Source: Verrucomicrobiota bacterium (lineage in GTDB: Bacteria; Verrucomicrobiota; Verrucomicrobiia; Verrucomicrobiales; Akkermansiaceae). Taken from it: a stretch of DNA of 39,514 nt. The notes under the pieces were generated by a model that did no database searches, was not told the origin of the DNA, and saw only the letters and a program-made list of their open reading frames with translations. The stretch spans positions 1 to 39,514 of the forward strand of contig WBXD01000006.1 of assembly GCA_008932935.1 (NCBI GenBank), in the 5' to 3' direction. The position numbers and the translations under genes are program-made. Positions 3,157 to 36,480 of this stretch are shown here, one piece after another (the stretch's first letter is position 1; the number at the start of each line of letters is the position of its first letter).

Positions 3157-3226
3157 GGGGGGAGTATAAGTTATAGGTTAGAAGTTATTGGGAAAGACAG
3201 AAGACAGAAGACAGAAGACTGGAAAA

Positions 3227-3350
<124 letters not shown>

Positions 3351-3445
3351 TTTTCCAAGAAATGCCATGCGCGGCCCGAGGGCTCTGATCTTGTCTTTGA
3401 GCGCAGCGGTCTTGGGTCTTGGAGCGCAGCGGTCTTGCGTCTTCT

Positions 3446-8265: not shown

Positions 8266-9354
8266 CTATCCGAGGCAAGAGCAAGCGCCGGAGCTGACGT
8301 TGGCGGCCGCTAGATCGGCGGCAAACTGGTCGGATAGAAGATAGTTCAGTTCCGCCTGGCGGCAGTTGGCGATGGGATCGGCGGGATCGTCAGCCGCCAA
8401 ACCCGGATGACACATCACCAGGGTGGAGTCGCCCGCGCCTGCCAGAAGGTGCCGGAAAAATTGGGCGACGTCGAAGTCGCTGCGGAACGGCCGGAAGCCT
8501 GCAAAGCGCGTGTTGCTGGCAAGGCCGGCGTGTCTTGCGCTGGCGGCGAGGCCGGCGGTCATGGCACGCAGCACCAACACTTTGGGCAGAAAGCCGCAGG
8601 CATGCGGCACGCGCAGCCAGGCTGCGGGATTGCGCCGACGAGTTTCCTCGATGACGATACGCCGGATCTGCGGGAAGGCATGCACATGCTGGTGCCCATC
8701 GACGAAGGCTGGAGGCTGGCCGTAATGAGCTTCGAAAGCTTCCCATTGTTGGACAAAGCGCTGGCGCACCGCGGCGGCGTCCAAGCGGTGGAGCAGCGCG
8801 CGCAGTATCAGAGGCCCCACGGCTTGCGCCGGGGCATGGGCTTTGTCAGTCGCACGACACTTGGCAAGTGTCGTTCCGGTGCCCACGGCTTGCGCCGGAG
8901 CATGGGCTTCGTCAGTCGCACGACACTTGGCAAGTGTCGTTCCGGTGCCCACGGCTTGTGCCGGGGCATGGGCTTCGTCAGTCGCACGACACTTGGCAAG
9001 TGTCGTTCCAGTGCCCACGGCTTGCGCCGGGGCATGGGCTTCGTCAGTCGCACGACACTTGGCAAGTGTCGTTCCGGTGCCCACGGCTTGTGCCGGCACC
9101 TGAGCCTCGCCACACACAAGCGGCGCGGCGGCAAACCCATGGGTGAGATTGAAGTGCAGGCCCGTCTGGTGATGGGTGCCAAGGGCCTTGAGCTGTTGAG
9201 CCATGGCTGGCCAGGCCGGGGATTCCGTTAGGCAGGAGACCGCCTGCAAGCGTCCGGCGGCGACGAGTTGAAGGATACCCTTACTGATAGCCACGGATTG
9301 GCCAAAGTCATCGGCGCAGAGGGTGAGGCGTTTCATCCTAAAAGGGAAGATCAT
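8266..9354 (-). CDS. ChbG/HpnK-like carbohydrate deacetylase carrying in-frame 22-aa repeats
   Basis: MKRLTLCADDFGQS...TGLHFNLTHG...FVDGHQHVHAFPQIR; repeat GTGTTLAKCRATDEAHAPAQAV about 4 times; overlaps the GT2 gene by 4 bp (9351-9354). Confidence 0.8.
   Translation of the reverse strand: MIFPFRMKRLTLCADDFGQSVAISKGILQLVAAGRLQAVSCLTESPAWPAMAQQLKALGTHHQTGLHFNLTHGFAAAPLVCGEAQVPAQAVGTGTTLAKCRATDEAHAPAQAVGTGTTLAKCRATDEAHAPAQAVGTGTTLAKCRATDEAHAPAQAVGTGTTLAKCRATDKAHAPAQAVGPLILRALLHRLDAAAVRQRFVQQWEAFEAHYGQPPAFVDGHQHVHAFPQIRRIVIEETRRRNPAAWLRVPHACGFLPKVLVLRAMTAGLAASARHAGLASNTRFAGFRPFRSDFDVAQFFRHLLAGAGDSTLVMCHPGLAADDPADPIANCRQAELNYLLSDQFAADLAAANVSSGACSCLG
8816..9097. repeat. Tandem 66-bp repeat, 4 full units plus a partial, each with a perfect 21-nt palindrome
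   Basis: palindrome acgacacttggcaagtgtcgt at 8854, 8920, 8986 and 9052 (exact 66-bp period); inside the ChbG/HpnK-like gene, in frame. Confidence 0.95.
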
Positions 9355-11812: not shown

Positions 11813-11832
11813 AACAGGGAGAAATGGGATGT

Positions 11833-11946
11833 ATTGTGGCGGCGCTCTGTGAGCGCCGATGCGCATGGAATGGCGATTGCCGGAAACGCGGGTTCATTGG
11901 CGGTGCATGAGCTTCGGCGGTCATAGACGCGCCGCTACAATGCGGC
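11833..11946. repeat. Dispersed palindromic element (GCGGCGGTC family)
   Basis: attgtggcggcgctctgtgagcgccgatg...gcgggttcattggcggtgcatgagc...ggcggtcatagacgcgccgctacaatgcgg; long match to 29461-29573; termini inverted. Confidence 0.8.
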
Positions 11947-12837: not shown

Positions 12838-15426
12838 TCAGATAGGTTGGGTGGCGGCGGTGGCCGGCGCCTCGATCCATTTGCCATGGTCGCGGATCAG
12901 GTCGGTGAGGCGGGCGACGGCGTCGCTTTCCGGGATATTGAATTGGACTGGGGTTTTGCCGACATAGAGGTTGATTTTTCCCGGTGCGCCGCCGACGTAG
13001 CCGAAATCCGCGTCGGCCATTTCACCGGGACCATTGACGATGCAGCCCATTACGGCGATGCGCACGCCCTTGAGGTGGCCGGTGGCGGCACGAATCTTTT
13101 GGGTCGTGTCTTGCAGGTTGAAAAGCGTGCGGCCGCAACTCGGGCATGCCACATAATCCGTCTTGAAAATACGCGTGCCGGCGGCTTGCAAGATATTATA
13201 GGCCAGCCGCAACGAACTACCGGGAGCTGGCTCGCCCCTAACCAGGATGGCGTCGCCGATACCGTCGCACAACAGCGAGCCGAGGTTGCAGGCGGCGCTG
13301 AGGGTGGCTTGCAACGCCTCCTCAGCAGTGCCCGTGGCAGCGTGGGTTGGCGGGGGCAACAAGGTGTCCTTGAGCAGTATCGGATGGCGCGGGTCGGCGC
13401 TCGCGGCGAGCAAGCGGAAGGCATGGATGACTTCCATTGCAATGCCGTCGGCCACGGTGATGAGTTGGGGCTCGGCGGCGGCATTGATCCGGGCGATGGC
13501 GGTGGCATCGCGGGGATCGAGTTGGCAGACGCCGGATTGTTCGATGGTGGCCTCGGGTTTAAATTCGCCCATGGCGGCAATTTTGTGGGCGATGGCGTTC
13601 CAGCGGTCCTGGGTGGTGAATACGCGCACCGTGCGCTCGCCGCCGAGCTCATGCCCCATCACACTGATGACCGAACTCTTGCGGCGCTGGTAGGTAAAGG
13701 GATCGTAAGTGGCGGTGGCTGCGGCGTCCCGCCGCAGGCCGTGGTCGCGGCGTCTCGCCGCGAGTTCGGGATAAGCACAGCCCATCCACCGCGATCCATC
13801 CAATCCCGCCTTCCAAGGATTATCCAGCACATAGTCCAACTGGTTGCGCAGATCCTCGCCATCGCGGATGAGGTGGTCATAGCTTTCCTTCTGCCAAATC
13901 GTGCCGGCAACACCGAGGCGTTTATCGATTTCGTGTGCGGTGAAGCTTTTCCAAGAATGCAGGATTTCCTCCAATTCATGCCCCGCAGCAGGCTGGAGAA
14001 CCACATGCACATGATTGGGCATCACACACCAGGCTAGCAACGTATAACGGGTGCCGTCAAAATGCCGCAAGGCCCCGGCTACCAGATCCGCAAAATCTTC
14101 ATTGCGCAACAGGCAGGCACCGTGACCGCGGTCCAATTCTGGATCGATCACGGCTGCCTGCAACTGTGCTAGTTGGTTGCGCACGGAAAGCATTTGGTCC
14201 AGCACGCTGCGCGAGCCACCGGCTCGGGCATGGCTATCCAGCAGATCGAGGAGCGCCTGACGCTTCTGGCGGTAATGCTCCAAGACCCCGCTCGGCAAGG
14301 AATCAGCAAGGCGGAAGGTCACGGCGTACGTGCCGCCGGCGAGTTTCCAGTGCGGGAGGTAACTGGCATCGGTTTTTTGAACCTTTTCCCAGTCGATGTG
14401 GATGGAGGCGGCGTCTTCGGTTAGGGAACGGCTTGGGGAAGAGGGGGATTGAGAAGAAATGGCTGAGTCGCCGCGAGACGCGGCGACCACGGCCTGCGGC
14501 GAGACGCCGCAGCCACCTGCGCAGCCACTGCCACAGCTACGCAGCAGGGCCTGGGCGACGGGGATTTCGTGGATTGAGTCTTCGGTGAGCGAGACGCGGA
14601 TGGTGTCGCCGATGCCGTCGGCGAGTAGCGAACCGATGCCGATGGCGCTTTTGATGCGACCGTCTTCGCCATCGCCCGCTTCGGTGACGCCGAGGTGGAT
14701 CGGGTAATTCCAGTCCGGGCCCTCGGCGGTGAGGCGTGCGACGAGCAAGCGGTAGGCCTCGATCATGACCTTCGGGTTGGACGCCTTCATCGAAAACACC
14801 AACTGGTGATAGTCGTCCTCGCGGGCGATGCGGGCAAATTCGAGTGCGCTCTCGACCATGCCCAGCGGAGTGTCGCCGTAGCGGTTCATGATGCGGTCGG
14901 AGAGCGACCCGTGGTTGGTACCGATGCGCATGGCGCGGCCGAGGTCCTTGCAGCGGCGCACCAACGGCGAGAACTCGGCGCGAATGCGGGCGAGTTCCCC
15001 GAGGTATTGGGCGTCGTCGTACTCGCGCACCGCAAATTTTTTCTTATCGGAGTAATTTCCCGGATTGACGCGGACTTTTTCGACCCATTTGGCGGCCTCC
15101 ATGGCGGCATCGGGTTTAAAATGGATATCGGCGACGAGAGGCACCTGGCAACCGGCGGCACGCACATCGCGGGCGATGTGGCGGAGGTTGGCGGCGTAGG
15201 TTTTGGTTTGGGCGGTGATGCGCACAATCTCACAGCCCACCTCGGCAAGACCGAGAATCTCAGCGACGCAGGCCGCAGTGTCGCGGGTGTCGGAGGTGAT
15301 CATGGATTGGACGCGCAGCGGATGGCCGGCACCCATGCCGAGATGACCCACCATCACCTCGCGGCTGGGCCGTCGGGCGTAGCTGAGGAGATCCGGGCAA
15401 TAGGCCAATGGTGAGAGCGGGGTCAT
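12838..15426 (-). CDS. ispG: 4-hydroxy-3-methylbut-2-enyl diphosphate synthase IspG (three-domain type) with an in-frame internal RAYT
   Basis: MVGHLGMGAGHPLRVQSMITSDT...VADIHFKPDAAMEAAKWVEKVRVNPGNY...YVACPSCGRTLFNLQ...GCIVNGPGEMADADFGYVGGAPGKINLYVGK; uninterrupted ORF through the insert at about 13709-14545. Confidence 0.92.
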   Translation of the reverse strand: MTPLSPLAYCPDLLSYARRPSREVMVGHLGMGAGHPLRVQSMITSDTRDTAACVAEILGLAEVGCEIVRITAQTKTYAANLRHIARDVRAAGCQVPLVADIHFKPDAAMEAAKWVEKVRVNPGNYSDKKKFAVREYDDAQYLGELARIRAEFSPLVRRCKDLGRAMRIGTNHGSLSDRIMNRYGDTPLGMVESALEFARIAREDDYHQLVFSMKASNPKVMIEAYRLLVARLTAEGPDWNYPIHLGVTEAGDGEDGRIKSAIGIGSLLADGIGDTIRVSLTEDSIHEIPVAQALLRSCGSGCAGGCGVSPQAVVAASRGDSAISSQSPSSPSRSLTEDAASIHIDWEKVQKTDASYLPHWKLAGGTYAVTFRLADSLPSGVLEHYRQKRQALLDLLDSHARAGGSRSVLDQMLSVRNQLAQLQAAVIDPELDRGHGACLLRNEDFADLVAGALRHFDGTRYTLLAWCVMPNHVHVVLQPAAGHELEEILHSWKSFTAHEIDKRLGVAGTIWQKESYDHLIRDGEDLRNQLDYVLDNPWKAGLDGSRWMGCAYPELAARRRDHGLRRDAAATATYDPFTYQRRKSSVISVMGHELGGERTVRVFTTQDRWNAIAHKIAAMGEFKPEATIEQSGVCQLDPRDATAIARINAAAEPQLITVADGIAMEVIHAFRLLAASADPRHPILLKDTLLPPPTHAATGTAEEALQATLSAACNLGSLLCDGIGDAILVRGEPAPGSSLRLAYNILQAAGTRIFKTDYVACPSCGRTLFNLQDTTQKIRAATGHLKGVRIAVMGCIVNGPGEMADADFGYVGGAPGKINLYVGKTPVQFNIPESDAVARLTDLIRDHGKWIEAPATAATQPI
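13717..13763. repeat. REP type A double hairpin, left end of the ispG RAYT
   Basis: ggctgcggcgtcccgccgcaggccgtggtcgcggcgtctcgccgcga: stems tgcggcg/cgccgca and tcgcggcg/cgccgcga, 3-nt loops. Confidence 0.92.
14467..14514. repeat. REP type A double hairpin, right end of the ispG RAYT (inverted relative to 13717)
   Basis: gtcgccgcgagacgcggcgaccacggcctgcggcgagacgccgcagcc, near-exact reverse complement of the left copy. Confidence 0.92.
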
Positions 15427-15781
15427 CTGCAACGATGCATAACCGAAAAACCGCAGTCCGGCAACGCCAACGGCGCATTCTTTCCCTCGCCACGCCTCAT
15501 GGGTCTCCAAACGTCAGCTCCCGCAACACTCCCCCAACGCTTCCGCTACTCCATACGACCTGGAAATTCGCCAGTCCATTCTAGTTCACTTGAAGCGGGT
15601 CATGTCGCTTGGGCCTTTCGCCCGCTCAGGCAACGAGCAATCAGGACCCAAATCTCTGACCGCTTCATCACTCCGTGCCCACCTCCGCAATGGCCCTGGC
15701 GCAGGGGCTGGATTTTTGTTTGACTTGTACGGGATTCCGGCTTATCCCAAGCTTTCCCCCCGGCTGGCTTCTGGGTGATTC

Positions 15782-15811
15782 TTGATTTTCGCCGCCTAGC
15801 GCGGTAACAAT
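15782..15811 (+). promoter_or_regulatory. Candidate sigma-70-type promoter upstream of mreB
   Basis: TTGATT, 17-nt spacer, TAACAA; about 50 nt before the mreB start; pattern only. Confidence 0.3.
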
Positions 15812-15862
15812 CAGCACCACGCAGGCGCTGCCAGACCTTTCAATCTTTCACAAGCCTTTGCT

Positions 15863-16918
15863 TTGCAACCCTTTTTCATATTAAAGAAGTTTTTTGGAAA
15901 TTTTTTCCCGAATGACATCGGCATCGACCTCGGAACCGCCAATACGCTCATTTACGTCAAAGACCATGGCGTCGTACTGCGCGAACCGTCGGTCGTCGCG
16001 GTCAAGGCTGGTACCAACGAGGTCCTCGCCGTCGGCGACGATGCCAAACGCATGCTCGGCCGCACGCCAGGCAATATCGTCGCCATCCGCCCCCTCAAGG
16101 ACGGGGTGATCGCCGATTTTGAAGTGACCGAGGCGATGCTGCGCCACTTCATTCGCAAGGTGAATAAAAACCGCCGCTCCAACCCCCGGGTGCTCATCGC
16201 CATCCCCTCGGGCATCACCGAGGTGGAACGCCGCGCCGTGCGCGAAAGCGCCGAACAGGCCGGCGCCCGCGAAGTGTACCTCATCGAAGAACCCATGGCC
16301 GCCGCCATTGGCGTGGGCCTGCCGGTGCAGGATGCCTCCGGCAACATGATCGTGGATATCGGCGGCGGCACCACCGAGGTGGCCCTCATTTCCCTCTCCG
16401 GCATCGTCTACGCCCGCAGCGTGCGCACCGCCGGCGATGAATTGGACGAGGCGATCGTTTCCTACATGAAGCGCGCCTACAATCTGATGATCGGCGAGCG
16501 CACCTCCGAAGATATCAAAATCCGCCTCGGCTCCGCCGCCCCACTGCCTAAGGAAATGACCATGGACGTCAAGGGCCGCGACCTGGTCGCCGGCCTGCCC
16601 AAAACCATCACCATCACCTCCCAGGAAATCCGCGAGGCCATGGCCGACCCGCTCAGCACCATCGTTGATGCGGTGCGCACCACTCTGGAACGTTGCCCGC
16701 CCGAACTCGCCGCCGACCTGGTGGACCGCGGCATCGTGCTGGCTGGCGGAGGGGCCCTGCTCAAGGGGCTCGACCGCTTGCTGCGCGAAGAAACCGGGCT
16801 GCCGGTGCACATCGCCGAGGATCCCCTCAGCGCGGTGGCCGAAGGCACCGGCAAGGCGCTTCAGGAACTCGCCCTCTTGAAGCGCGTCACCAACACCGAC
16901 CGCAGGGTCGAGCGCTAG
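15863..16918 (+). CDS. mreB: Rod shape-determining protein MreB
   Basis: [31 protein letters not shown]...[14 protein letters not shown]...[14 protein letters not shown]...[17 protein letters not shown]. Confidence 0.97.
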
Positions 16919-16931
16919 GCAGGTCCCGGCC

Positions 16932-17747
16932 ATGAAGCCGCTCAATCTCATTGCCAGCCTGCTCTTTGTGAGTGGGGCCATCTGGGCACTCACCCGCAGC
17001 GAGCGGTCCGTGCGCGATATCCAGTGCGGCTATTTTTCCGCCATCGCGCCCTTCCTTAAGAGCGGCTCGCGGACCGAAGCCTATGCCCGCAGCTTCCTCG
17101 ATGAGGTCGAGCATTCCAAGGTCCTGGAGGCCGAACTGACCACCATCAACAGTGAAATGGGCCGCCTGCGCATCATCGAGTCGCGCTACCGCGAACTCGA
17201 ACGCGAAAACGCCCAGCTCCGCCATGCCCTGGATTTTAAAAAGGCCACCAGCTTCAATGTCGCCGCCGCACAAGTCGTCCGCCGCCAGCCGACCACCTGG
17301 TGGCAAACCGTCGAAATTGACGTCGGCGACGATCGTGGCATTGGCAGCCAGCTCGCCGTGCTTTCCAACGAAGGCCTAGTGGGCATCATCGACCGCCCGG
17401 CCAAGGACCGCTCATCAGTCATTTTGCTAACTGACGAGGCGTGCCAGGTCTCGGCCAAGGTCGAGGACAGCCCCGAGGTGGGCATTCTCAGCGGGCAGCG
17501 CGGGCAGTTTGAAGGCGCGCCGCTGCTGCGGTTGAAGTTTTTATCAAAGAATGCCGCGCTGCACTCCGGCCAGCGCGTGTTCACCACCGGCCGCGGAGGG
17601 ATCTTCCAGGCCAATATCCTCCTAGGTACCATCGTGTCCGTCGAAAAGGGCGCCGAGGATTCCGAAGCTCTCGTTCGACCAGCGGTGAACTTCGCGGACC
17701 TGGGCACGGTGTTTGTCGTGCTGTCCAAAGAGCCCCCGAAGAAGTGA
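16932..17747 (+). CDS. mreC: Rod shape-determining protein MreC
   Basis: N-terminal TM, coiled coil, VAAAQVVRRQPTTWWQTVEIDVGDDRGI...VLSNEGLVGII; follows mreB, overlaps mreD. Confidence 0.88.
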   Translation: MKPLNLIASLLFVSGAIWALTRSERSVRDIQCGYFSAIAPFLKSGSRTEAYARSFLDEVEHSKVLEAELTTINSEMGRLRIIESRYRELERENAQLRHALDFKKATSFNVAAAQVVRRQPTTWWQTVEIDVGDDRGIGSQLAVLSNEGLVGIIDRPAKDRSSVILLTDEACQVSAKVEDSPEVGILSGQRGQFEGAPLLRLKFLSKNAALHSGQRVFTTGRGGIFQANILLGTIVSVEKGAEDSEALVRPAVNFADLGTVFVVLSKEPPKK

Positions 17748-18328
17748 CCCGCTACACCATCATCACTGTGTTGTTAGTGCTGGCCAGCTTTGTCGTCCAG
17801 CAATTCCTGCCCGCCCTCACCGCACTGCATCATTCGCGCGTGCTGTTAGTGCAACTCGTGTTCCTGTGCGCGGCGGTCACCGTCGGCCAGCCCACCATGC
17901 TGTTGCTGGCGTTTGTATGTGGCTTCCTGTGGGATGCACAGTGCACCCTCGGTGCCCACGGCGGCGACCCGGAAATCTACAGCCAGCCGGTCGAATCGCT
18001 GCGCTTCGGTTATTCGATTCTGCTGTTTGGGGCAATGGGTTTTCTGATGCAAGGCATCCAGCCACTATTCAAGCAGGGCAAGTGGTATTTCTCCGCGCTG
18101 CTCTCCGGCATCGCCATCTTGCTCTATCTCGCCGCCGAATTCCTCCTCATCACCTTCGCTCGCGGCAACTTCATTTTCGCCAAGGCCACCGCCTTGCAAA
18201 TGGCTTATACCTCGCTGCTGACCATGCTGTTCTCCCCACTGGCGTTCTGGATGCTCTTCGGCATCGCCGGCTTGTGCGGCCACTCTATCAATCCAGAGGC
18301 CGCCAGAAAACGCCGGCGCCATTTCTAA
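17744..18328 (+). CDS. mreD: MreD-like membrane protein
   Basis: multi-TM protein of 194 aa between mreC and the PBP2 gene; 4-bp overlap with mreC. Confidence 0.75.
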   Translation: MTRYTIITVLLVLASFVVQQFLPALTALHHSRVLLVQLVFLCAAVTVGQPTMLLLAFVCGFLWDAQCTLGAHGGDPEIYSQPVESLRFGYSILLFGAMGFLMQGIQPLFKQGKWYFSALLSGIAILLYLAAEFLLITFARGNFIFAKATALQMAYTSLLTMLFSPLAFWMLFGIAGLCGHSINPEAARKRRRHF

Positions 18329-18333
18329 CGACC

Positions 18334-20493
18334 ATGGAACCGAGCTACCGCATGCGCCTCTACCTGCTCACAGCACTCGTGCTGACGGGCTTCGGGGTGT
18401 TGCTCACGCGTTTGTATGATTACCAAATCAAACGCCGCGATGAGTTTCTGCAAATGGTCCCCGGCAACAGCACCGTCAGCGTTCGCGAACCGGGCATCCG
18501 CGGCGAAATCACCGACCGCAACGGCATCCTGCTGGCCCGCAACCTGCGCAATTACGAAATTTCCTTTAACCTAGATGAAATCCACAAGGCATACCGGCAG
18601 CAACATGCCGCCGACCCCTCGCTCAAACGCCTCAGCAAAAAGGACGCCATGGAGCGGGCGGATGAGGAAAGGGACATCGTGAAGATCGTCAACAACTGGA
18701 CTATCAAACGCTTCGATCAGCTCGGCCTGACCAAAAACTACAACGCCGGGGCGTTGCGCACCCATTATCTAACGCACCGCGGGCTGGTGCCATTCAGCTA
18801 CCGCACCGATCTGACCTATGATGAGTTTGCCCGCTGTGCCGAGCACAATCTCGAACTGCCAGGCGTCTATCTGAGCACCCGTCCGCTGCGCCAATACCCC
18901 TACGCCGCCCTCGCCAGTCACGTGCTTGGCTACATCAAGCAGTGGGAACCGGCGGATATTCCAGACAGCGCCAAACGCAAGTTCGACCATTACATCGGCG
19001 ACGCCAAGGGCATCGCCGGCATCGAGCAAAGCATGGATGCGATCCTGCGCGGCCCGGAGGGTCAGAAAAAACTCCTCAAGGATGAGAAAGGCCATGTCAT
19101 CCGCATGATCGACTACACCAAACCGGGCATCGGCGCCAAACTCACCCTCGCCATCGACGCCCGCGCTCAACTCCATGTCGAAAACGTCATCCGCCGCGCT
19201 GGCCGCGCCGCCGCCGTCGTCATGGACGTGAATACCGGCGAGGTCATCGCCATGGCCGCCATTCCAGATTACAATCCTAACGATTTCATCCCCTCCATCT
19301 CCAGTGCTCACTGGAAAGGCTATCTGGACAACCAGAAAATGGATCCGTTCTCCAATCGTGCGATCAGGCCCTTCACCCCGGGTTCGACCTTCAAGCCGCC
19401 CACCGCCATTGCCGGTGCCCTCGAAGGCATGGCCAACCGGGTGTTCTCGTGCGATGGCTACATCTTGTTTGGTAACATCAAAATCGGTTGCTGGATTTGG
19501 AATCAGCACCGCGGCAACCACGGCTCGCTCACCTTACCCAAGGCGATCCAGCAATCGTGCAATCCCTATTTTATGAAACTGGCTAACACCATCGGTTGGA
19601 AAGCCATGGTCACCGGCTTCCAGATGGTCGGCCTCGGCCAACCCACCGGCATCGAATTGCCCGACGAAAGCCCCGGCATTCTCCCGGGCTCCCGGGCCTG
19701 GCGCACCGCCAATCCATCCGCCTCGATGACTCCGGCGATCACCGCGATGCTCGCCATCGGCCAGGCCGATGCCATGGCCACGCCGCTGCAACTCTGTGCC
19801 ATGGCTGCCTGCATCGCTAACGGCGGCAAATACTACAAGCCTCGCATCGTCAAATCTGCCACCGCCGCCGACGGCCATAGGGTCATTGAGGACAAGCCCG
19901 AGATGAAGGTCGATCTGATCGCTTCGGGGGTTAAGCCCGCCGATTTCGAACTCCTCCGCCGCGGCATGTGGATGGCCGTCAACGATCCCGGCGGCACCGC
20001 CTCGCGGGTGAAAATCCCCGGCCTCCAACTCGCCGGCAAAACCGGCACCGCCCAAACCATCGACGATGGGAAAAAATCCAACAATTCATGGGTTATTTGT
20101 TTCGGCCCATACGAGAAGCCCAAATACGCGGTGTGCGTGCTGGTGCAAAACGGGGGATCCGGCGGCAAGGTATGCGGGCCGCTGGCCAACCTGATTTTGC
20201 GCGGCCTCTTCGCCCAGGATGATGGCATCAAGCTGCCACTCAAACCGCAGAGCGCAGTGCCCGGCAACACCAACCGCATCGAGGAAATCGTCATTCCCAA
20301 GGATGACCCGCTCGTCAACCCAGGCAGCGAGGAGGCAGAAGGCAGCGGCGAAACCGGCGAGGAAGTCGAAAACCTCGAGGCTCGCACCCCACCCACCAGC
20401 GCCGCACCACTCATTCCCACGCCCGTCATCACTCCCGAAGTTGATGCGGATGGCACCGTCATCCCACGCGCCCAACCCGTCTCCGAACCCTGA
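18334..20493 (+). CDS. mrdA: Penicillin-binding protein 2 (elongasome transpeptidase)
   Basis: single N-terminal TM; GIRGEITDRNGILLARN; SxxK TPGSTFKPPTA; SCN (QQSCNPYF); KTG (LAGKTGTAQ); start at MEPSYRMRLYLL, ORF track starts upstream in another gene. Confidence 0.92.
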   Translation: MEPSYRMRLYLLTALVLTGFGVLLTRLYDYQIKRRDEFLQMVPGNSTVSVREPGIRGEITDRNGILLARNLRNYEISFNLDEIHKAYRQQHAADPSLKRLSKKDAMERADEERDIVKIVNNWTIKRFDQLGLTKNYNAGALRTHYLTHRGLVPFSYRTDLTYDEFARCAEHNLELPGVYLSTRPLRQYPYAALASHVLGYIKQWEPADIPDSAKRKFDHYIGDAKGIAGIEQSMDAILRGPEGQKKLLKDEKGHVIRMIDYTKPGIGAKLTLAIDARAQLHVENVIRRAGRAAAVVMDVNTGEVIAMAAIPDYNPNDFIPSISSAHWKGYLDNQKMDPFSNRAIRPFTPGSTFKPPTAIAGALEGMANRVFSCDGYILFGNIKIGCWIWNQHRGNHGSLTLPKAIQQSCNPYFMKLANTIGWKAMVTGFQMVGLGQPTGIELPDESPGILPGSRAWRTANPSASMTPAITAMLAIGQADAMATPLQLCAMAACIANGGKYYKPRIVKSATAADGHRVIEDKPEMKVDLIASGVKPADFELLRRGMWMAVNDPGGTASRVKIPGLQLAGKTGTAQTIDDGKKSNNSWVICFGPYEKPKYAVCVLVQNGGSGGKVCGPLANLILRGLFAQDDGIKLPLKPQSAVPGNTNRIEEIVIPKDDPLVNPGSEEAEGSGETGEEVENLEARTPPTSAAPLIPTPVITPEVDADGTVIPRAQPVSEP

Positions 20494-20533
20494 AAGACTC
20501 ACCCCAATCAAATAATCTAACATAATAACAACC

Positions 20534-22123
20534 ATGATTCAACGCATCAAACGCCTCCTCGGCATCGGCAAGCCAGATCCCTCACGCGGCAACAGCATTA
20601 TCGTCAACGTCGAAAAACTCGAACGCCGCGTCGCCCTCCTCGAAGATGGCGTCCTGGAAGAATACACCGTCGAACGCGAGGGCGACCAGAACATCGTCGG
20701 CGGCATCTTCAAAGGCCGCGTCAAAAATATCGAACCCGGCCTCAAGGCCATGTTCGTCGATATCGGTCTGGACAAAAATGCCTTCCTGCATTTTTGGGAC
20801 GCCATCCCTGCCGCGCTGGATGCCGGCTTGGAGGAAATTCAACGCGAAACCAATCCCAAGCGGCATCAGAAAAAAGTCACATCCAAGGACATTCCCGATA
20901 TCTATCCGGTGGGATCAGAGATAGTCATCCAAGTGTCCAAGGGCCCAATCGGCACCAAGGGCCCGCGGGTGACCACTAACATTTCCATGGCCGGCCGCTA
21001 TCTGGTACTCATGCCCTTTACCGAACAATTTGGCATTTCGCGCAAAATTGAGGATCCCGCGGAGCGCCAGCGCCTGCGCAAAATCGTCCAGAAACTCTCC
21101 GTCCCCGAGGGCATGGGCATCATCATGCGCACCGTGGCTCAAGGCACCCGTGCCCGCCACTTCGTCAGAGATCTCGCCATGCTGCTCGAACAGTGGGACC
21201 AAATCGAGGAATGCCGCGTCAACTCCCCCACCCCGGCCTGCATCTTCCAAGAACCCGATCTGATAGAACGCACCGCCCGCGATTTTCTAACCGACGAGAT
21301 CGACCAGATCATCTGCGATGACGCCGCCACCACCGAAATCATCCGCGAGATCGCCGGCAAAATTTCCCGTCGTGCCAAACGCCGCGTCCACTATCTGCCA
21401 TCGGCAACCCAACCGATTTTCGAGCGGGTCAACATCCAGAAGCAAATCGACGAGGCATTCTCGCGCCAAGTGTGGCTGCCATGCGGCGGCTACATCGTCA
21501 TCGACGAGACCGAGGCCCTCATCTCCATCGACGTGAACACCGGTCGCAACCGCGGCTCCAAAGATGTGGACCGGATGATTCTCGAAACTAACGTCGAAGC
21601 TGCCCAGGAAGTCGCCCGCCAACTGCGCTTGCGCAACATCGGCGGCTTGGTGGTCATTGACTTCATCGACATGCGCCACCGCAAGGACCAGCAGACGGTG
21701 TACAAAACCATGCGCGACCGTCTCAAAAAGGACAAGGCCAAGACCCAGGCGCTGCAAATCTCGCCGGTGGGTCTGATGGAAATGACCCGTCAGCGGCTCA
21801 ACGAATCGCTGCGCGACTCGATGTACGAGCCGTGCCCGTATTGCCAGGGCCGCGCCCGGGTCAAGACCCCGATGACCATGTCGGTGGAGATTCAGCGCCG
21901 GCTCAACACGGTCATTCAAAAGCATCGCGATACGCTTGGAGATATTGTCATCGTGGTCAACAGCGATGTGCTCAACCGCTTCAAGAGTGAGGACGCCAAA
22001 CTCCTCGTCGAACTCGAACGCTCCCACTCTGGCCGCCTCATCTTCCGCTCCGAACCGTCACGCAACCGCGAACGCTTCGCCATCATCGACGCCCAAACCG
22101 AAAAAATCATCGATCAGGCATGA
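20534..22123 (+). CDS. rng: Ribonuclease G/E family
   Basis: IFKGRVKNIEPGLKAMFVDIGLDKNAFLH...GGYIVIDETEALISIDVNTGRNRGSKD...GGLVVIDFIDMRH...PCPYCQGRARVK. Confidence 0.94.
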   Translation: MIQRIKRLLGIGKPDPSRGNSIIVNVEKLERRVALLEDGVLEEYTVEREGDQNIVGGIFKGRVKNIEPGLKAMFVDIGLDKNAFLHFWDAIPAALDAGLEEIQRETNPKRHQKKVTSKDIPDIYPVGSEIVIQVSKGPIGTKGPRVTTNISMAGRYLVLMPFTEQFGISRKIEDPAERQRLRKIVQKLSVPEGMGIIMRTVAQGTRARHFVRDLAMLLEQWDQIEECRVNSPTPACIFQEPDLIERTARDFLTDEIDQIICDDAATTEIIREIAGKISRRAKRRVHYLPSATQPIFERVNIQKQIDEAFSRQVWLPCGGYIVIDETEALISIDVNTGRNRGSKDVDRMILETNVEAAQEVARQLRLRNIGGLVVIDFIDMRHRKDQQTVYKTMRDRLKKDKAKTQALQISPVGLMEMTRQRLNESLRDSMYEPCPYCQGRARVKTPMTMSVEIQRRLNTVIQKHRDTLGDIVIVVNSDVLNRFKSEDAKLLVELERSHSGRLIFRSEPSRNRERFAIIDAQTEKIIDQA

Positions 22124-22132
22124 GCCGCTCCG

Positions 22133-22165
22133 GCGGGGCCTCTGGCGTCAAGTCCAGAGCCCCGC
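22133..22165 (+). terminator. GC-rich hairpin just after rng, terminator-like but without a T-tract
   Basis: gcggggcctctgg-cgtcaagt-ccagagccccgc, 12-bp stem with one bulge. Confidence 0.4.
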
Positions 22166-22182
22166 GCAGCCATATGTGCAGC

Positions 22183-22260
22183 CTTGTAGCGGCGGTCTGT
22201 GACCGGGCTAGCGAATGTGGATAGCGCATCTCTTGCGCATCCACACTCACACAGCGCGGC
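22183..22260. repeat. Dispersed palindromic element (GCGGCGGTC family) with internal hairpin
   Basis: ccttgtagcggcggtctgtgaccgggc...gtggatagcgcatctcttgcgcatccac; shares the TTGTAGCGGCGGTCTG head with 29463 and 36390. Confidence 0.65.
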
Positions 22261-22282
22261 AGTGAAGCATGTGGCGCGGGGC

Positions 22283-23356
22283 CTACTCGCCAGCTTCGGC
22301 GAGGCGCTCGTCCATTTCGGCTTTTTGCAGGCCAGCGGTGAACTCGGAAAAATCCCCTGCCATCACCCCGGCGAGGTTGTGGGAGGTGAGCGCAATGCGG
22401 TGGTCGGTGACGCGGGACTGTGGAAAATTATAGGTGCGGATTTTCTCTGAGCGGTCGCCGGAACCGATGAGGGAACGACGGTGTGAGGAATAGGCCTCCT
22501 GTTGGGAGCGGAGTTTTTGTTCGTAGAGCTTGGTGCGGAGGATTTGCATGGCAATCTCGCGATTCTTGATCTGCGAGCGACCCTCTTCGCAACGAACGTA
22601 GGTGCCAGTTGGCAAATGAAAGATTTGCACGGCGCTTTCGGTGCGGTTGACGTGTTGGCCGCCGGCGCCGCCGGCGCGGCAGACTTCGATGCGCAGATCT
22701 TCCTGTTTGATATCGATATCCACTTCCTCGGCTTCCGGCAGCACGGCTACGGTGATGGTGGAGGTGTGGACGCGGCCTTGGGTTTCGGTGGAGGGAACGC
22801 GCTGGACGCGGTGGACGCCCGACTCGTATTTGAGGTGGCGGAACACCTCGTCGCCGGTCACTTTGAGAATAACTTCCTTGAAGCCGCCTACTTCCGACGG
22901 GCTGCTTTCGAGGTGTTCGCATTTCCAGCCGCGTAGATCGGCGTAGCGTTGATAGGCACGCATCAACTCGGCGGCAAACAGCGAGGCCTCGTCGCCACCC
23001 GCCCCGGCCCGAATTTCGATTAGGGCATCGCGATCTTCGTTGGGATCGGCGGGCAGCAGGGCATATTGGAGCTGGTCGGCCAAGCGGGTAATATTCGCTT
23101 CGAGTGCGGGAATTTCCTCCGCGGCCATCGCTGCGAAGTCTGCGTCGTCGGCTTTGGCCAGTTCCTGGTTGTCGGCGAGGTGACGTTTGGTGGCCTGCAG
23201 GTTCTCCCAGAGTTCTAGCGTCTGTTGGAGCTTGCGGTGCTCGCGCAACAGGTCGGTGGCACGTTTGGGATCGGCGAACAAGCCAGGATTGCCAACCGCT
23301 TCTTCCAGTTCGGCGAAGCGGTCACGGCGTTTGGCAATGAGCGAGGAATAGTCCAT
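22283..23356 (-). CDS. prfA: Peptide chain release factor 1
   Basis: GVHRVQRVPSTETQGRVHTSTITVAVLP...EVCRAGGAGGQHVNRTESAVQIFHLPTGTYVRCEEGRSQIKN; GGQ motif and RF1-type PxT. Confidence 0.93.
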   Translation of the reverse strand: MDYSSLIAKRRDRFAELEEAVGNPGLFADPKRATDLLREHRKLQQTLELWENLQATKRHLADNQELAKADDADFAAMAAEEIPALEANITRLADQLQYALLPADPNEDRDALIEIRAGAGGDEASLFAAELMRAYQRYADLRGWKCEHLESSPSEVGGFKEVILKVTGDEVFRHLKYESGVHRVQRVPSTETQGRVHTSTITVAVLPEAEEVDIDIKQEDLRIEVCRAGGAGGQHVNRTESAVQIFHLPTGTYVRCEEGRSQIKNREIAMQILRTKLYEQKLRSQQEAYSSHRRSLIGSGDRSEKIRTYNFPQSRVTDHRIALTSHNLAGVMAGDFSEFTAGLQKAEMDERLAEAGE

Positions 23357-23605
23357 GTGGGCGTTTAGCAAATCTCATCGGCAATCTTCCACTTGCCATT
23401 GCAGGCGGCAGCGCGGCGTGCGGTGGATGGCGGTAGTGGCCGACATGCCGGAGATTAGCGGGCACCGGGATGTGATTCAAGTCTTTCGATTGAATGACAG
23501 TTTGCCTGTCCCCATCTCTGCGTCTTTTTCAGGGTCGTGGTTCAATGGTAGTCGGCAATTTGACCTTCGAAGGTGCTGCCCTCATGCCAGCGGACAACCT
23601 CAATG

Positions 23606-26600
23606 TCACATTTTCAGCATTCCGGCTGCCGTCGCCATGATTTCCGCGAGTTGCTCGCGTTGGTGGGCAGCGCCACGGGCTTGGTCGGGCTTGCCGCCGC
23701 CTTTGCCGCCGGCAAGGGCGGCGAGGTCGCGCAGGAGGTCGCCGGCTTTGAGACCAGCTGCTAGGGCGGCGCTGCCGCAATGGGTGGCGAGGTGGAGTTT
23801 GTCGCCGTCATCGACGATGAGCAACGCGGGGCCGGCGAAGTTTTTCTTTTTGAGGCCGTTCTGGAGTTCTTGCAGCAATGAGGCATCCGCCTCGAAGCTG
23901 GCGATAATCGGCTCGCCCTTGGCGATGAGCTCGGCGAGCGCCTCGTCGGCTAGGCTGGCGGCTTGCGAAGCTTGAATTTTCTTGAGGCGTTTTTCGGCCT
24001 CGATGGCGGCATCTCGGGTTTCGCCAAGCGTGCGTTGGCCGTGGGCGAAGATGGCGTTGAGTTGGGAGATATCGGCACGTTCGACCAACATGGCGCTCAT
24101 GATGTGCGGGAACTCATGGACCGTGACCGGTGGCTCGGCGAGGGCAGCGAGCTTTTCGTTAGCGGCATGCAGTTTGGCGGTGGCGGCTTTGAGTTCGTGA
24201 TCCCATTTCTCTACCATCTCGTTGAGGTGGTTCCAGGCTGCCTCGCCGCAGACGGCTTCGATGCGGCGCACGCCGGAGGCGATGGCGCCTTCGCTTTTGA
24301 TTTTGAAAAGCCCGATCTCACTGGTACGGCGGACGTGAGTGCCGCCACAGAGTTCCATCGAGTAACCGTTTAATTTGCTAGGATCGCCGCCCACCTGCAC
24401 CACTCGCACCGTCTCGCCGTACTTGTCGCCGAAGAATTGCATGATATCCGCGCGTCCCTTGATCGATGCATGTGGCACTTCCGTCCATGACACCGGGACG
24501 TCGGCCTGGATCGCCGCATTGACCTGTTCCTCCATCGCGGCAACTTGCTCGGCAGTGACGGCGCCGCTATTGAAGTCGAAGCGCAGACGGTTCTCATCGA
24601 CCGCCGAGCCTTGCTGCGCGGCATCGGGCGACACCACCTCGTGCAAGGCCCAATGCAGCAGGTGGGTGGCGGTGTGGTGGGCCTCGATCGGGCGGCGGCG
24701 GCGGGCGTCGAGCTTGAGGGTGACCGCGTCGCCGAGCTTGACCGCAGCAGAGGAGCTGACGATGTGGGCACGGGCTTTGCCGATTTGTTGGACGCCGGTG
24801 ATGGGCACTTCGACGTCGCCGATCACGAGGGAACCGGTATCGCCGGACTGGCCGCCCATCTCGGCGTAGAAGACCGTCTTGTCGGTGATGATAAACAGCG
24901 CGTCCTCCTGCGGATGAATTTCCAGCACGCTCGCCGCCACCTCATCGCACTCGAAGCCAACAAATTCTGTGACCGCTTCCGAGGAAACATCCAGCGCTCT
25001 AACTATCGTGGATTTTTTCGCGGCACGGGCGCGGTCACGTTGTTGCTCCATGAGCTTTTCGAAACGCGGCATGTCCACCGTGAGGCCGCGTTCGGCGCAC
25101 AGAAGTTCGGTTAGATCGACAGGGAAGCCGAAGGTGTCGTAGAGTTCGAAGGCGAGGTCGCCTGAGAGTTGCTGGGGAGCGCCGGCGGGTTGCTGGGGAG
25201 CGCCGGCGTCCCGCCGGCTGTCATGGGCATCCTGCCCATGACTCTGAGGAAATTGCGCGGCGCTGGAATCCGTGGGGAGCGCGTTTTGGGAAAGCGCGGC
25301 CGCTTTTGAAGGTGCGCCTGCGGCGGGTTTTTCAGAAGATTCCGGCAGGATGCCGGAATCTGCCGGCGGGACGCCGGCGCTCCCCAGCCGCATCTCTGCA
25401 AGGGATGTTTCGCTCCAGCCCCGCGACCAAACAAACGGATAGGGACCGTCCTTGGTGAGATCCGCACGCTGGGCATTGGTGGTGATATAGTCGAATTTCT
25501 CGCCGAAATCAGCATCCGAGCGAATCAAACGATCATGATAGTCGCGTTCCCAGACGGTTCCCGTGGCACCCTCTGCGGTGTTGATTTCCTTGGCGGTGAA
25601 CGATTTGATGGAGTGCATCAGGCCGCCAAGCTCCCAGAAGATTGGGTGGCCCTCGGCATCATACTCCTTGGGCTGGGGCTCGATGAGCAGATGGAAATGG
25701 TCCGGCATGACCACCGCGGCAAAGAGAATGTAGCGGGAGCCGTGGAAATGTTGGATCGCGTCGAGAGTGATTTGGCGGGCATTGGGGGCAAGGATGTGGC
25801 GCTGCCTAGTTGTGACAGTTAGAAGGTACTTGCCCCATGGGCGCTCGAAGTGAGGCAGGCCGTGGGGTTTGGAATAGAGTGCACCTTGGGAGAGGGCGGC
25901 GGTTTTCTCAGAAGATTCCGGCAAGATGCCGGAATCTGCCGGCAGGATGCCGGCGCTCCCCACAGAAACGCTCCCCACAGAAACGCTCCCCACAGAAGCG
26001 TTCCCCACAGAAACGCTCCCCACCGAAGCACTCCCCACAGAAGCGTTCCCCAGCGCCTCCTCGAAGCGCTTGAGCCCGCGGTCGAGCGTTTGGTTGAAGC
26101 TGGCCTCCTCTTGTTCGAGGGTGGAGCGGATGGCGTCCTGGCGAGCTAGCAACTCAGGAAAGACCTCACCCATTTGTGCGACGAGGGTTGCGACCAGAGC
26201 GCCGAAGAACGGCTTGTCGCCGGAGAAGCCGAGTTGGCGGCCGTATCTAACGGCTCGGCGGAGGATGCGCCGCAGCACGTAGTTGCGACCGGTGTTGCCG
26301 GGCAGGATGCCATCGGCGATGGAGAACGAGAGGGTGCGCAGGTGGTCGGCGATGACGCGGAAGGCGATGGCGGTTTTGAGATCTTCGGCGAAGAGGGCGC
26401 GGTCGGCACCAGGTAGCGGATAGGTATCGGTATAAGTCTTGCCGCTGAGGGCCTCGAGTTGGCGGAACAGTGGCTGGAAGACGTCGGTGGAGTAGTTGCT
26501 AGGCTTGACCGAGAAATCAGTGAAGCCCTTGGTGTTCTGGATGATCGAGCAGGCGCGCTCGAAGCCCATGCCGGTGTCGACGTGCTTAGCGGGCAATTCG

Positions 26601-27286
26601 CGGAAGCTGCCATCGGCCTCGGCATTGTACTGGATGAACACGAGGTTCCAAATTTCAATACACAGGTCGGAGTCGTTGTTGACGAGCTTGCCCTGGGAAT
26701 CGCCATCGGGTGTTAGATCGACATGGAGTTCGGAGCAAGGGCCGCAGGGGCCGGTTTCGCCCATCATCCAGAAGTTATCCTTGACGCTGCCGTGGACGAT
26801 GTGGATGGCCGGATCGCAGCCTTTGGCGCGGAACAGGGCGGCCCAGATGTCCCACGACTCTTGGTCGAATTCACCCGGATCGCCGGGCTTGGGACCATAG
26901 ACGGAGGCGTAGAGGCGGTTGGCAGGCAGGCCCCAGCGCTCGACCACCAGCTCCCAAGCCCAGGCGATGGCTTCCTGTTTGAAGTAATTGCCGAACGACC
27001 AATTGCCGAGCATTTCGAAAAACGTATGATGATAGGTGTCGTAGCCGACGTCTTCGAGGTCGTTGTGTTTGCCGCCGGCGCGGATGCATTTCTGGGTGTC
27101 GGTGGCGCGCGGCGGATTGAAGGGGGCTTTTGCGACGCCGAGGAAATACGGTACGAACGGGTTCATGCCGGCATTGGTGAAGAGCAAGCCGGGCGACTGC
27201 GGCAGCAGCGAAGCGGACGGCACAATGGAGTGCTGCTTTTCACGGAAAAAATTCAGGAAACTCTGGCGGATGGCGGCGGCGGTCAT
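23606..27286 (-). CDS. alaS: Alanyl-tRNA synthetase with an in-frame internal RAYT
   Basis: FFREKQHSIVPSASLLP...DTYHHTFFEMLGNWSFGNYFKQEAI...GPCGPCSELH...HHTATHLLHWAL...ELCGGTHVRRTSEIGLFKI; start at MTAAAIRQSFLNFF; uninterrupted through the insert at about 25167-26051. Confidence 0.95.
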   Translation of the reverse strand: MTAAAIRQSFLNFFREKQHSIVPSASLLPQSPGLLFTNAGMNPFVPYFLGVAKAPFNPPRATDTQKCIRAGGKHNDLEDVGYDTYHHTFFEMLGNWSFGNYFKQEAIAWAWELVVERWGLPANRLYASVYGPKPGDPGEFDQESWDIWAALFRAKGCDPAIHIVHGSVKDNFWMMGETGPCGPCSELHVDLTPDGDSQGKLVNNDSDLCIEIWNLVFIQYNAEADGSFRELPAKHVDTGMGFERACSIIQNTKGFTDFSVKPSNYSTDVFQPLFRQLEALSGKTYTDTYPLPGADRALFAEDLKTAIAFRVIADHLRTLSFSIADGILPGNTGRNYVLRRILRRAVRYGRQLGFSGDKPFFGALVATLVAQMGEVFPELLARQDAIRSTLEQEEASFNQTLDRGLKRFEEALGNASVGSASVGSVSVGNASVGSVSVGSVSVGSAGILPADSGILPESSEKTAALSQGALYSKPHGLPHFERPWGKYLLTVTTRQRHILAPNARQITLDAIQHFHGSRYILFAAVVMPDHFHLLIEPQPKEYDAEGHPIFWELGGLMHSIKSFTAKEINTAEGATGTVWERDYHDRLIRSDADFGEKFDYITTNAQRADLTKDGPYPFVWSRGWSETSLAEMRLGSAGVPPADSGILPESSEKPAAGAPSKAAALSQNALPTDSSAAQFPQSHGQDAHDSRRDAGAPQQPAGAPQQLSGDLAFELYDTFGFPVDLTELLCAERGLTVDMPRFEKLMEQQRDRARAAKKSTIVRALDVSSEAVTEFVGFECDEVAASVLEIHPQEDALFIITDKTVFYAEMGGQSGDTGSLVIGDVEVPITGVQQIGKARAHIVSSSAAVKLGDAVTLKLDARRRRPIEAHHTATHLLHWALHEVVSPDAAQQGSAVDENRLRFDFNSGAVTAEQVAAMEEQVNAAIQADVPVSWTEVPHASIKGRADIMQFFGDKYGETVRVVQVGGDPSKLNGYSMELCGGTHVRRTSEIGLFKIKSEGAIASGVRRIEAVCGEAAWNHLNEMVEKWDHELKAATAKLHAANEKLAALAEPPVTVHEFPHIMSAMLVERADISQLNAIFAHGQRTLGETRDAAIEAEKRLKKIQASQAASLADEALAELIAKGEPIIASFEADASLLQELQNGLKKKNFAGPALLIVDDGDKLHLATHCGSAALAAGLKAGDLLRDLAALAGGKGGGKPDQARGAAHQREQLAEIMATAAGMLKM
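25168..25242. repeat. REP type B in plus orientation, with a duplicated 21-bp head
   Basis: gttgctggggagcgccggcg at 25168 and 25189, then ggggagcgccggcgtcccgccggctgtcatgggcatcctgcccatgac (25195-25242). Confidence 0.85.
25331..25385. repeat. REP type B, minus orientation, downstream side of the RAYT
   Basis: reverse complement reads GGGGAGCGCCGGCGTCCCGCCGGCAGATTCCGGCATCCTGCCGGAATCTTCTGAA. Confidence 0.9.
25908..25961. repeat. REP type B, minus orientation, upstream side of the RAYT
   Basis: reverse complement reads GGGGAGCGCCGGCATCCTGCCGGCAGATTCCGGCATCTTGCCGGAATCTTCTGA. Confidence 0.9.
25958..26047. repeat. 15-bp tandem repeat, 6 units, in frame in alaS
   Basis: ccccacagaaacgct units at 25958, 25973, 25988, 26003, 26018 and 26033; encodes (A/V)SVG(S/N) pentapeptides. 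Confidence 0.95.
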
Positions 27287-27466
27287 AGACGCACCTGTCA
27301 AACCATGAAACACGCCCCGTGGCACGCTAAATTTTTCCCCAAAACGGCCGCAAGACTTAATACCGCGGTGATTTCCGCCGCCGCTATGCCACACTGGCGA
27401 AGCCACGAGAGCAAGGTTGAGGCTCCATACTTGACGCCGCCCACTAGAGCGGGCGATAATCAGGTC

Positions 27467-28423
27467 ATGCCCGAGCGATTCACGAACCCTTGGCCAGCTC
27501 ACATGCCCAGCCTCAAGGACGTGCTGCGTTGGAAACTCGGCTTCGGCGACAAAATGGTGCCGGACTTCCCTGCCGCCCATGCAGCTGCACCTTGGCAGGC
27601 CCTCACCAAACAACAACTCCACGAGATGCCGACGCGCGGGTGGCGCGTCAGCTGGCTCGGCCATGCCTCATTCCTGCTTAGTGGCTGTGGCGTGCACCTG
27701 CTGATTGATCCCATTTTTGCGGAATTCTGCGGCCCGCTACGCTTGCTAGACCTGCAGCGCAAGGCTCCCCTGCCCTGTCGCGTGGATGAATTGCCACCCA
27801 TCACGGCGGTCTTGCTCACCCACACGCATTACGACCACTGCGATCTACCGACCCTGCGCGCCTTGGGCAAAGCCACCCCGCTCATCGTGCCCGAAGGCCA
27901 CGCGGAGTGGTTTGCCAATGCTGGTTTTATTCGCGTGCAGCCAGTTGTCTGGTGGCAGTGCATCGATATTGCGCCGGGCGTGTCGGTCACTGCCACTCCG
28001 GCCCAACATTTCACCGCGCGCAGCTTGGCCGACCGCAATCGCGGCCACTGGTGCGGCTGGTGCGTGGCGGGCGGCGGGGTCAAACTCTGGCACTCGGGCG
28101 ACAGCGGGTATTGCCCCGCGTTCCGTGAAATCGGCACCCGCCTCGGGCCGCTGGACTTTGGCATGATCGGCATCGGCGCCTATCAACCGCGCTGGTTCAT
28201 GCGCCCCTTGCACATGGCTCCCGGGGAGGCTGTACTGGCATTTCAGGAGACCGGATGCCGCCACGCCACCGCCATGCACTGGGGCACCTTTCAACTGAGC
28301 GACGAACCGCTGGGCGAGCCGCCGCTGTTGCTCGCCCGCGAGCTGCACGACCGGGGCGTGGCAGCCGGGCAGTTCGACGGCGGCCGCATCGGCCAACAAT
28401 GGAATGTGGTAGCCGCATCCTGA
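27467..28423 (+). CDS. Metallo-beta-lactamase-fold hydrolase (NAPE-PLD/UlaG-like)
   Basis: VSWLGHASFLLSGCGVHLLIDPIF...VLLTHTHYDHCDLPTLRAL...LWHSGDSGYCPAFREIG...ATAMHWGTFQLSDEPLGEPP; start at MPERFTNPWPAHMPS, ORF track starts antisense to alaS. Confidence 0.88.
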   Translation: MPERFTNPWPAHMPSLKDVLRWKLGFGDKMVPDFPAAHAAAPWQALTKQQLHEMPTRGWRVSWLGHASFLLSGCGVHLLIDPIFAEFCGPLRLLDLQRKAPLPCRVDELPPITAVLLTHTHYDHCDLPTLRALGKATPLIVPEGHAEWFANAGFIRVQPVVWWQCIDIAPGVSVTATPAQHFTARSLADRNRGHWCGWCVAGGGVKLWHSGDSGYCPAFREIGTRLGPLDFGMIGIGAYQPRWFMRPLHMAPGEAVLAFQETGCRHATAMHWGTFQLSDEPLGEPPLLLARELHDRGVAAGQFDGGRIGQQWNVVAAS

Positions 28424-29287: not shown

Positions 29288-29460
29288 TGTTGCGTGGATT
29301 GGACAGCGCACGACTAAGCCTTGACGGGGCCGTTGACAAGGCAAAGCAGGTAATAAATCCGTGTTGAGTCCCCCCTCTGGAATGCACGTTAGCCAGATGT
29401 CCGCGCAATTATAACGGCCGCAAGGCATCATGAGATGGTTTGTAGCGGCGGCTGAGATGG

Positions 29461-29573
29461 ATTGTAGCGGTGGTCTGTGACCGCCGATGTGCTTGAGATG
29501 GTGCTTGCTGACAATGCGGGTTCATTGGCGGTTCATGAGCGTTGGCGGTCATAGACGCGCCGCCACTATGCGG
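29461..29573. repeat. Dispersed palindromic element (GCGGCGGTC family)
   Basis: attgtagcggtggtctgtgaccgccgatgt...gcgggttcattggcggttcatgagcgttggcggtcatagacgcgccgccactatgcgg; matches 11833-11946. Confidence 0.85.
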
Positions 29574-32997: not shown

Positions 32998-33173
32998 CAG
33001 CGGCAGGCTACCTTCGCCTCACCAGCTTGTCGAGGCTCATTTCCCCGCAAGCGGAGACTCAAAACCGCTGCGCTGCAAGACACAAGACCACTGCGCTCGA
33101 ACATAAGAGCAGAGCCGCTGGACAGCGCATGGCACCTCTTATTCCAGTCTCCTGTCTTCTACGACGGAGCGTC

Positions 33174-36341: not shown

Positions 36342-36389
36342 GTGGTTCCGGCGGCGGCGCTCGATGAGCGCCGATGTGAATGAGGCGCC

Positions 36390-36480
36390 TTGTAGCGGCG
36401 GTCTGCGACCGTCGCCAGCGAATGCAGACGTGCCTCCGCTCTCTTCCATTGGCAGCGACGCGCACCCGGCGCCGCTACAA
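36390..36480. repeat. MITE-like palindromic element with TTGTAGCGGCG / CGCCGCTACAA termini
   Basis: ttgtagcggcggtctgcgaccgtcgcc...gcgacgcgcacccggcgccgctacaa. Confidence 0.75.

Follow-up and report, generated by a model that had tools for sequence, protein, structure and literature searches.

RAYTs (TnpA-REP) have been described as free-standing genes that give no evidence of being mobile (PMC8266576) and as single-copy, vertically inherited genes that are unable to copy themselves (PMC8049555). A RAYT gene lying between inverted GTAG-type REPs constitutes a REPtron. Short in-frame REPs within genes were reported in 2013, GTAG cases being most numerous in the verrucomicrobium Opitutus terrae (PMC3733652); these intragenic REPs, like the Rickettsia palindromic elements, are repeats of 20–30 codons without a transposase. 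The modules considered here have in common with the latter two classes that palindromic repeats are read in frame inside genes, but they include a full RAYT. With REPtrons they share an HUH nuclease with one catalytic tyrosine, inverted flanking REPs tagged GTAG or GTGG, further REPs scattered over the genome and TnpA-REP (4ER8) as the best PDB match. Unlike REPtrons, they are in frame in essential enzymes, without a free-standing gene, and appear to be laterally mobile at one site, that in IspG. A free-standing gene with its own start is, however, usual for RAYTs without being a defining activity. Our search of open-access papers turned up no account of RAYTs residing within essential enzymes.

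The window, that is, the whole stretch of DNA analysed, is an entire 39.5-kb contig of an Akkermansiaceae genome (2.24 Mb in 178 contigs, 71% complete). Its reverse strand contains an ORF of 890 aa stop to stop (12838–15510), likely starting at the ATG at 15426, which is the only ispG (gcpE) match in the genome. The ORF matches TIGR00612 and, in two stretches, PF04551 (1.5e-123), the GcpE homology being split in two by a Y1_Tnp match; it scores below the IspG family cut-off PRK02048. The intervening segment, RAYT A (13765–14397, reverse strand), is an in-frame domain of 211 aa with HUH and Tyr motifs and matches to Y1_Tnp (PF01797) and REP_Tyr_transpos, with the TIM barrel on one side and the A* domain on the other. 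The only upstream start candidate of RAYT A is a GTG inside the REP.

RAYT A is flanked on both sides by REP A arms of 50 nt each that are 94% complementary: a 5′ doublet (14468–14517, reverse strand), with its GTGG tag outward and read as CGVSPQAVVAASRGD, and its inverted partner on the 3′ side (13714–13763, forward strand). For RAYT A and its ispG relatives, the tags (GTGG in the window, GTAG in the relatives) point outward on both sides. The REP A pattern matches twice in the window as against no match in 100 shuffles, and the pair is not due to chance. Genome-wide there are 29 copies, compared with none for the reversed control pattern. The 27 dispersed copies, read by eye, lie mostly in short unrelated ORFs or just 5′ of start codons and thus look mostly extragenic, which speaks against the idea, raised in a sequence-only reading of this DNA, that REP A colonises genes. 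Since RAYT A is the sole gene of its kind found, the RAYT that serves this REP population would be a domain of IspG, to judge from the assembly, which is incomplete.

The second RAYT is found in an ORF of 1352 aa stop to stop (23606–27664, reverse strand), the only alaS match in the genome, with matches to PF01411 (tRNA-synt_2c), PF07973 (tRNA_SAD), PF02272 (DHHA1) and TIGR00344; AlaRS homology extends from the ATG at 27286 on. RAYT B (25427–25852, reverse strand) is in frame between the AlaRS halves and matches REP_Tyr_transpos (7e-21) just below the model cut-off; phmmer against the PDB gave no match at E 0.01. On its 5′ side lies a REP B unit (25913–25962), with a 15-nt tandem array next to it towards the host sequence, up to 26057, and on its 3′ side two mutually inverted units (25337–25388 and 25192–25245) span 25192–25388, all on the reverse strand. 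The arms of RAYT B are inverted repeats too; tags were assigned for RAYT A and the ispG relatives. In 13 other genomes, this AlaRS loop likewise holds a relative of RAYT B.

The sequence-only reading had proposed two unrelated RAYTs with distinct REPs, both in frame in core genes within 15 kb. The positions hold, as host homology flanks both RAYTs. The RAYTs do fall into separate clades and have different REPs, but they are distant relatives that share 44% identity across roughly 100 aa (E about 1e-18). Similarly, the suggested transparency of the elements to reading frames applies to the REP A arms, which indeed contain no stop codon in any of the six frames; REP B has a single stop, in unit 25192–25245, where it falls in two of six frames. 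It does not extend to the RAYT bodies, which are open solely in the host frame, with 1–11 stops in each of the other five.

Affiliation with IS200/IS605 elements was also considered. Both belong to the Y1 transposase superfamily, but the present modules have one copy per type, are flanked by REPs and contain no tnpB. This candidate was rejected because RAYT A and RAYT B match only each other, and distantly, with no second near-identical copy. The same genome also has some ten further Y1_Tnp genes that belong to another subtype (L001–L011, on contigs C1, C3, C4, C29, C59, C72, C110 and C113 of G000). Their open frames reach 384 aa and several end at contig ends, as would be expected for a multi-copy element that breaks assemblies.

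Other repeats occur on the contig. The third gene said to carry in-frame palindromic repeats is a YdjC-like ORF (PF04794; 8266–9354, reverse strand) with tandem repeats and no RAYT; four to five 66-nt units lie at about 8816–9145, each with two short palindromes (GCCCA..TGGGC and ACGACACTT..AAGTGTCGT) and read as GTGTTLAKCRATDEAHAPAQAV. Two copies of a REP B-like hairpin (1809–1883 and 2482–2556) stand beside an ORF of the phage-integrase family. An additional GTAG-type repeat (TTGTAGCGGCGGTCTGTGACCGCCG and variants; 11824–11945, 22174–22205, 29430–29573 and 36353–36411) is apparently intergenic, and a RAYT of its own was not recognised on the contig. An 86-nt inverted repeat links 3357–3442 with 33055–33140 (81% complementary, 29.6 kb apart), and one of 42 nt is found at 3220–3357.

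When RAYT A and RAYT B were used as queries against 195 Akkermansiaceae genomes, many of them metagenome-assembled, the best ~60 matches of RAYT A were all located in open frames of about 590–1900 codons, and RAYT B gave the same picture. Among the matches listed, 104 distinct RAYTs lie in frame, distributed over nine host genes: MetH (30), IspG (27), LeuRS (19), AlaRS (14), a TPR protein (4), CarB (4), an adenosine-deaminase-like protein (3), an HsdR-like protein (2) and CinA (1, C-terminal). Hosts were assigned from the surrounding DNA by BLAST to reference hosts, with names beyond IspG and AlaRS read by eye, and in nearly all of the 104 cases host homology flanks the RAYT on both sides. At least 59 of the 195 genomes carry one or more in-frame RAYTs, and at least 13 carry three or four. 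More than 100 further cases in related genomes lend strong support to the view of RAYTs as in-frame passengers of essential enzymes. They are not scattered through genes, as had been envisaged, since about 100 cases reduce to about a dozen fixed sites, mostly with close kin at each: positions agree to within a few residues in all 14 AlaRS cases, and the site is shared by 18 of 19 LeuRS and 28 of 30 MetH cases.

Could the fusions stem from chimeric contigs, or from ispG and alaS copies in decay? The source assembly is fragmented and 71% complete. The same junctions, however, recur in dozens of independent assemblies, including several single-contig genomes (e.g. G048, G082 and G098) and the cultured Luteolibacter pohnpeiensis KCTC 22041, which has a RAYT in IspG; moreover, there are no internal stops, and a second copy of the host gene is absent in nearly all genomes. 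An artefact or pseudogene origin was rejected on these grounds, its probability being next to nil. Since nearly every genome has one match each to ispG and alaS, the fused genes must supply the enzyme. The outcomes that would have spoken against the original proposal, namely a lack of further in-frame RAYTs or random insertion followed by gene decay, were not seen, given the additional cases and the open, single-copy host genes.

Embedded RAYTs are present in other Verrucomicrobiota families as well. In a phylum sample outside the family, 39 of 120 listed matches were in frames of more than 560 codons, a share that is biased upward because the query was built from in-frame RAYTs. The hosts there, identified by eye, include HypF, mevalonate decarboxylase, an NspC-like decarboxylase, radical SAM proteins and methylase-like proteins.

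Random insertion, with only in-frame insertions in tolerant loops persisting and no special lifestyle, would be another way to arrive at such fusions. The IspG site is a naturally variable linker, and survival requires an open frame. Yet the cases are concentrated at about a dozen sites, and in the tree they group by host gene. In the suggested comparison of in-frame with out-of-frame RAYTs, none of 40 free-standing loci proved to lie out of frame or antisense within a reference host gene, the free-standing share being understated because in-frame RAYTs were gathered with in-frame queries. We consider mere chance survival very improbable. Two of the 40 free-standing loci adjoin cinA or alaS. 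In G101, cinA is fused C-terminally to a RAYT, while in G093 a close RAYT is a separate gene following cinA (L080, L168), which may represent capture at an early stage or the loss of a stop codon.

The embedded RAYTs look functional by sequence conservation. The HUH histidines (H-x-H) are present in all 104 in-frame RAYTs, the catalytic tyrosine, scored by alignment column, in 103 and the following asparagine in 100. The closest pairs show dN/dS of 0.03–0.31 (NG86, which saturates at distance). An AF2 model of the RAYT A domain alone has E. coli TnpA-REP (4ER8) as its nearest PDB entry, both in sequence (E 7e-9) and in fold (E 1.3e-7), a search with the whole fusion being dominated by the IspG barrel. 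In the model of the fusion, the IspG barrel, the A* domain and the RAYT mostly have pLDDT of 70–95, the REP-encoded linkers are below 50 and the Fe-S domain is poorly predicted; the RAYT is accordingly predicted to be folded and the linkers disordered. An ATG within 70 codons upstream of the first motif is missing from 62 of the 104 in-frame RAYTs as compared with 5 of the 40 free-standing ones (Fisher p=2e-7), so that translation as part of the enzyme is the simplest reading. The presence of such an ATG in the other 42 makes it possible that some embedded RAYTs are translated separately.

Purifying selection and long residence in the same enzymes might hint that the enzyme acquired the RAYT domain as a helper or regulator, for instance in REP-dependent control, and that the domain is kept for the benefit of the host enzyme. 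This explanation is at odds with the unrelatedness of the hosts, with the replacement of residents at a given site by RAYTs that differ in REP specificity, and with the close relatives that are often empty or scarred; we regard domestication of this kind as unlikely. Loss occurs by in-frame deletion that leaves REP or RAYT scars. At the IspG site, whose length and sequence vary between relatives, the RAYT C-terminus and the 3′ REP remain in L138 and L260, a REP and the RAYT N-terminus in L140 and L258, the 3′ REP and a short stretch of the C-terminus in L261 and the 5′ REP with the RAYT leader in L259, all in frame; in-frame REP remnants alone are found in L257, L143, L157 and L269, and the alleles L154 and L158 are empty. 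Among the sequences described here, only these scars and the YdjC repeats come close to the intragenic-REP class. A second site in IspG is occupied alone in L285, and in a single IspG ORF of 1125 codons (L246:4998-8372) both sites are filled, each by an intact RAYT of a different type.

In a maximum-likelihood tree of 144 RAYTs (quick searches, SH-aLRT support), the host label changes 12 times, as compared with a mean of 88.6 after shuffling; on this phylogeny, RAYTs sharing a host gene are mostly each other's closest relatives. Those of IspG site 2 and of the TPR protein are nested in the MetH clade, which points to host jumps. At the IspG site, RAYT types are scattered over the IspG tree, and the IspG data reject a single origin of the type I carriers (AU p=2.4e-5). 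Rank correlation between RAYT and host identity (Spearman) is 0.10 for IspG, −0.01 for LeuRS, 0.49 for MetH and 0.40 for AlaRS. Where the hosts of a pair are at least 0.90 identical, the RAYTs are less than 0.60 identical in 13 of 19 IspG and 16 of 22 MetH pairs. G170 and G194 provide an example: their IspG proteins are 99% identical, their RAYTs 46%. The flanking DNA of the two genes diverges by less than 1% from −1400 to −200 and by 3–9% in the 300 bp adjoining the insert, as if the donor flank had arrived with the element. Conversely, among G076, G180 and G194, pS of the RAYT (0.04–0.08) is below that of the host gene (0.19–0.28), and in several ispG pairs the stretch of low divergence coincides with the element, the flanks being more divergent on both sides. 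These patterns indicate that RAYTs are exchanged laterally between the alleles of different species at the IspG site. A clear co-conversion tract was looked for in MetH pairs and none was seen; as the RAYTs of MetH and AlaRS also partly follow their hosts, their spread may be mainly vertical.

We think it probable that the RAYT/REP module is an internal part of an essential enzyme, whose reading frame protects it, and that it passes between the alleles of a given site. This would amount to a REPtron resident inside housekeeping genes and translated as a folded domain on flexible REP-encoded linkers. By being translated within the enzyme, the module would borrow its expression and, since a stop or frameshift in the module would kill the enzyme, it would be shielded from decay. 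The RAYT domain could then act in trans on its cognate REPs elsewhere in the genome. RAYT lineages stay with one host gene, move laterally at the IspG site and rarely jump to a new host gene.

The least certain step is how the exchange takes place. It may proceed by homologous recombination through the host flanks, perhaps provoked by nicking of REPs by the RAYT, in which case the module would be a homing-like element without splicing. Inteins and homing endonucleases place an in-frame nuclease in conserved essential genes, at the same site in many species; their lineages are tied to the site, are exchanged laterally and do not follow the host phylogeny. Embedded RAYTs share with them the in-frame nuclease, the essential host, the fixed site, the site-tied lineage and, apparently, the lateral exchange and the departure from host phylogeny. 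They differ from both in residing in a variable linker, in the type of nuclease, which is an HUH ssDNA enzyme rather than LAGLIDADG or HNH, and in the presence of REPs. An intein was rejected, as the IspG and AlaRS fusions gave no Hint domain match in Pfam.

Alternatively, each site may have received one ancient insertion that was afterwards exchanged by normal homologous recombination, with no RAYT activity. The host-specific RAYT clades fit this alternative, the flank tract of G170 and G194 fits any gene conversion, and housekeeping genes recombine readily. It does not sit well with the ispG pairs in which low divergence is confined to the element, nor with active sites whose conservation would be unnecessary for mere hitchhiking; we give it only just less than an even chance. 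A protein-embedded homing element, in which the HUH RAYT would nick REP or target DNA at the host site of other alleles and then be copied in by recombination, is proposed more tentatively, as a serious possibility that we would not bet on.

Whichever way the exchange proceeds, RAYTs that the literature presents as domesticated, vertically inherited and immobile are here held in essential frames and, it seems, exchanged at fixed sites. The empty, full, doubly occupied and scarred alleles, with one case in a cultured bacterium, form a large natural data set on which the persistence, activity and mobility of RAYTs can be tested. For protein science, they illustrate that nuclease domains of ~200 residues are tolerated within aminoacyl-tRNA synthetases, MetH, IspG and CarB. 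For annotation, they are a reminder that RAYT–enzyme fusions drop under some family cut-offs, that for IspG being an example, and the fusions discarded in an earlier RAYT survey may be real. If a homing mechanism is indeed at work, selfish spread together with the essentiality of the host would keep RAYT/REP systems going across the Verrucomicrobiota.
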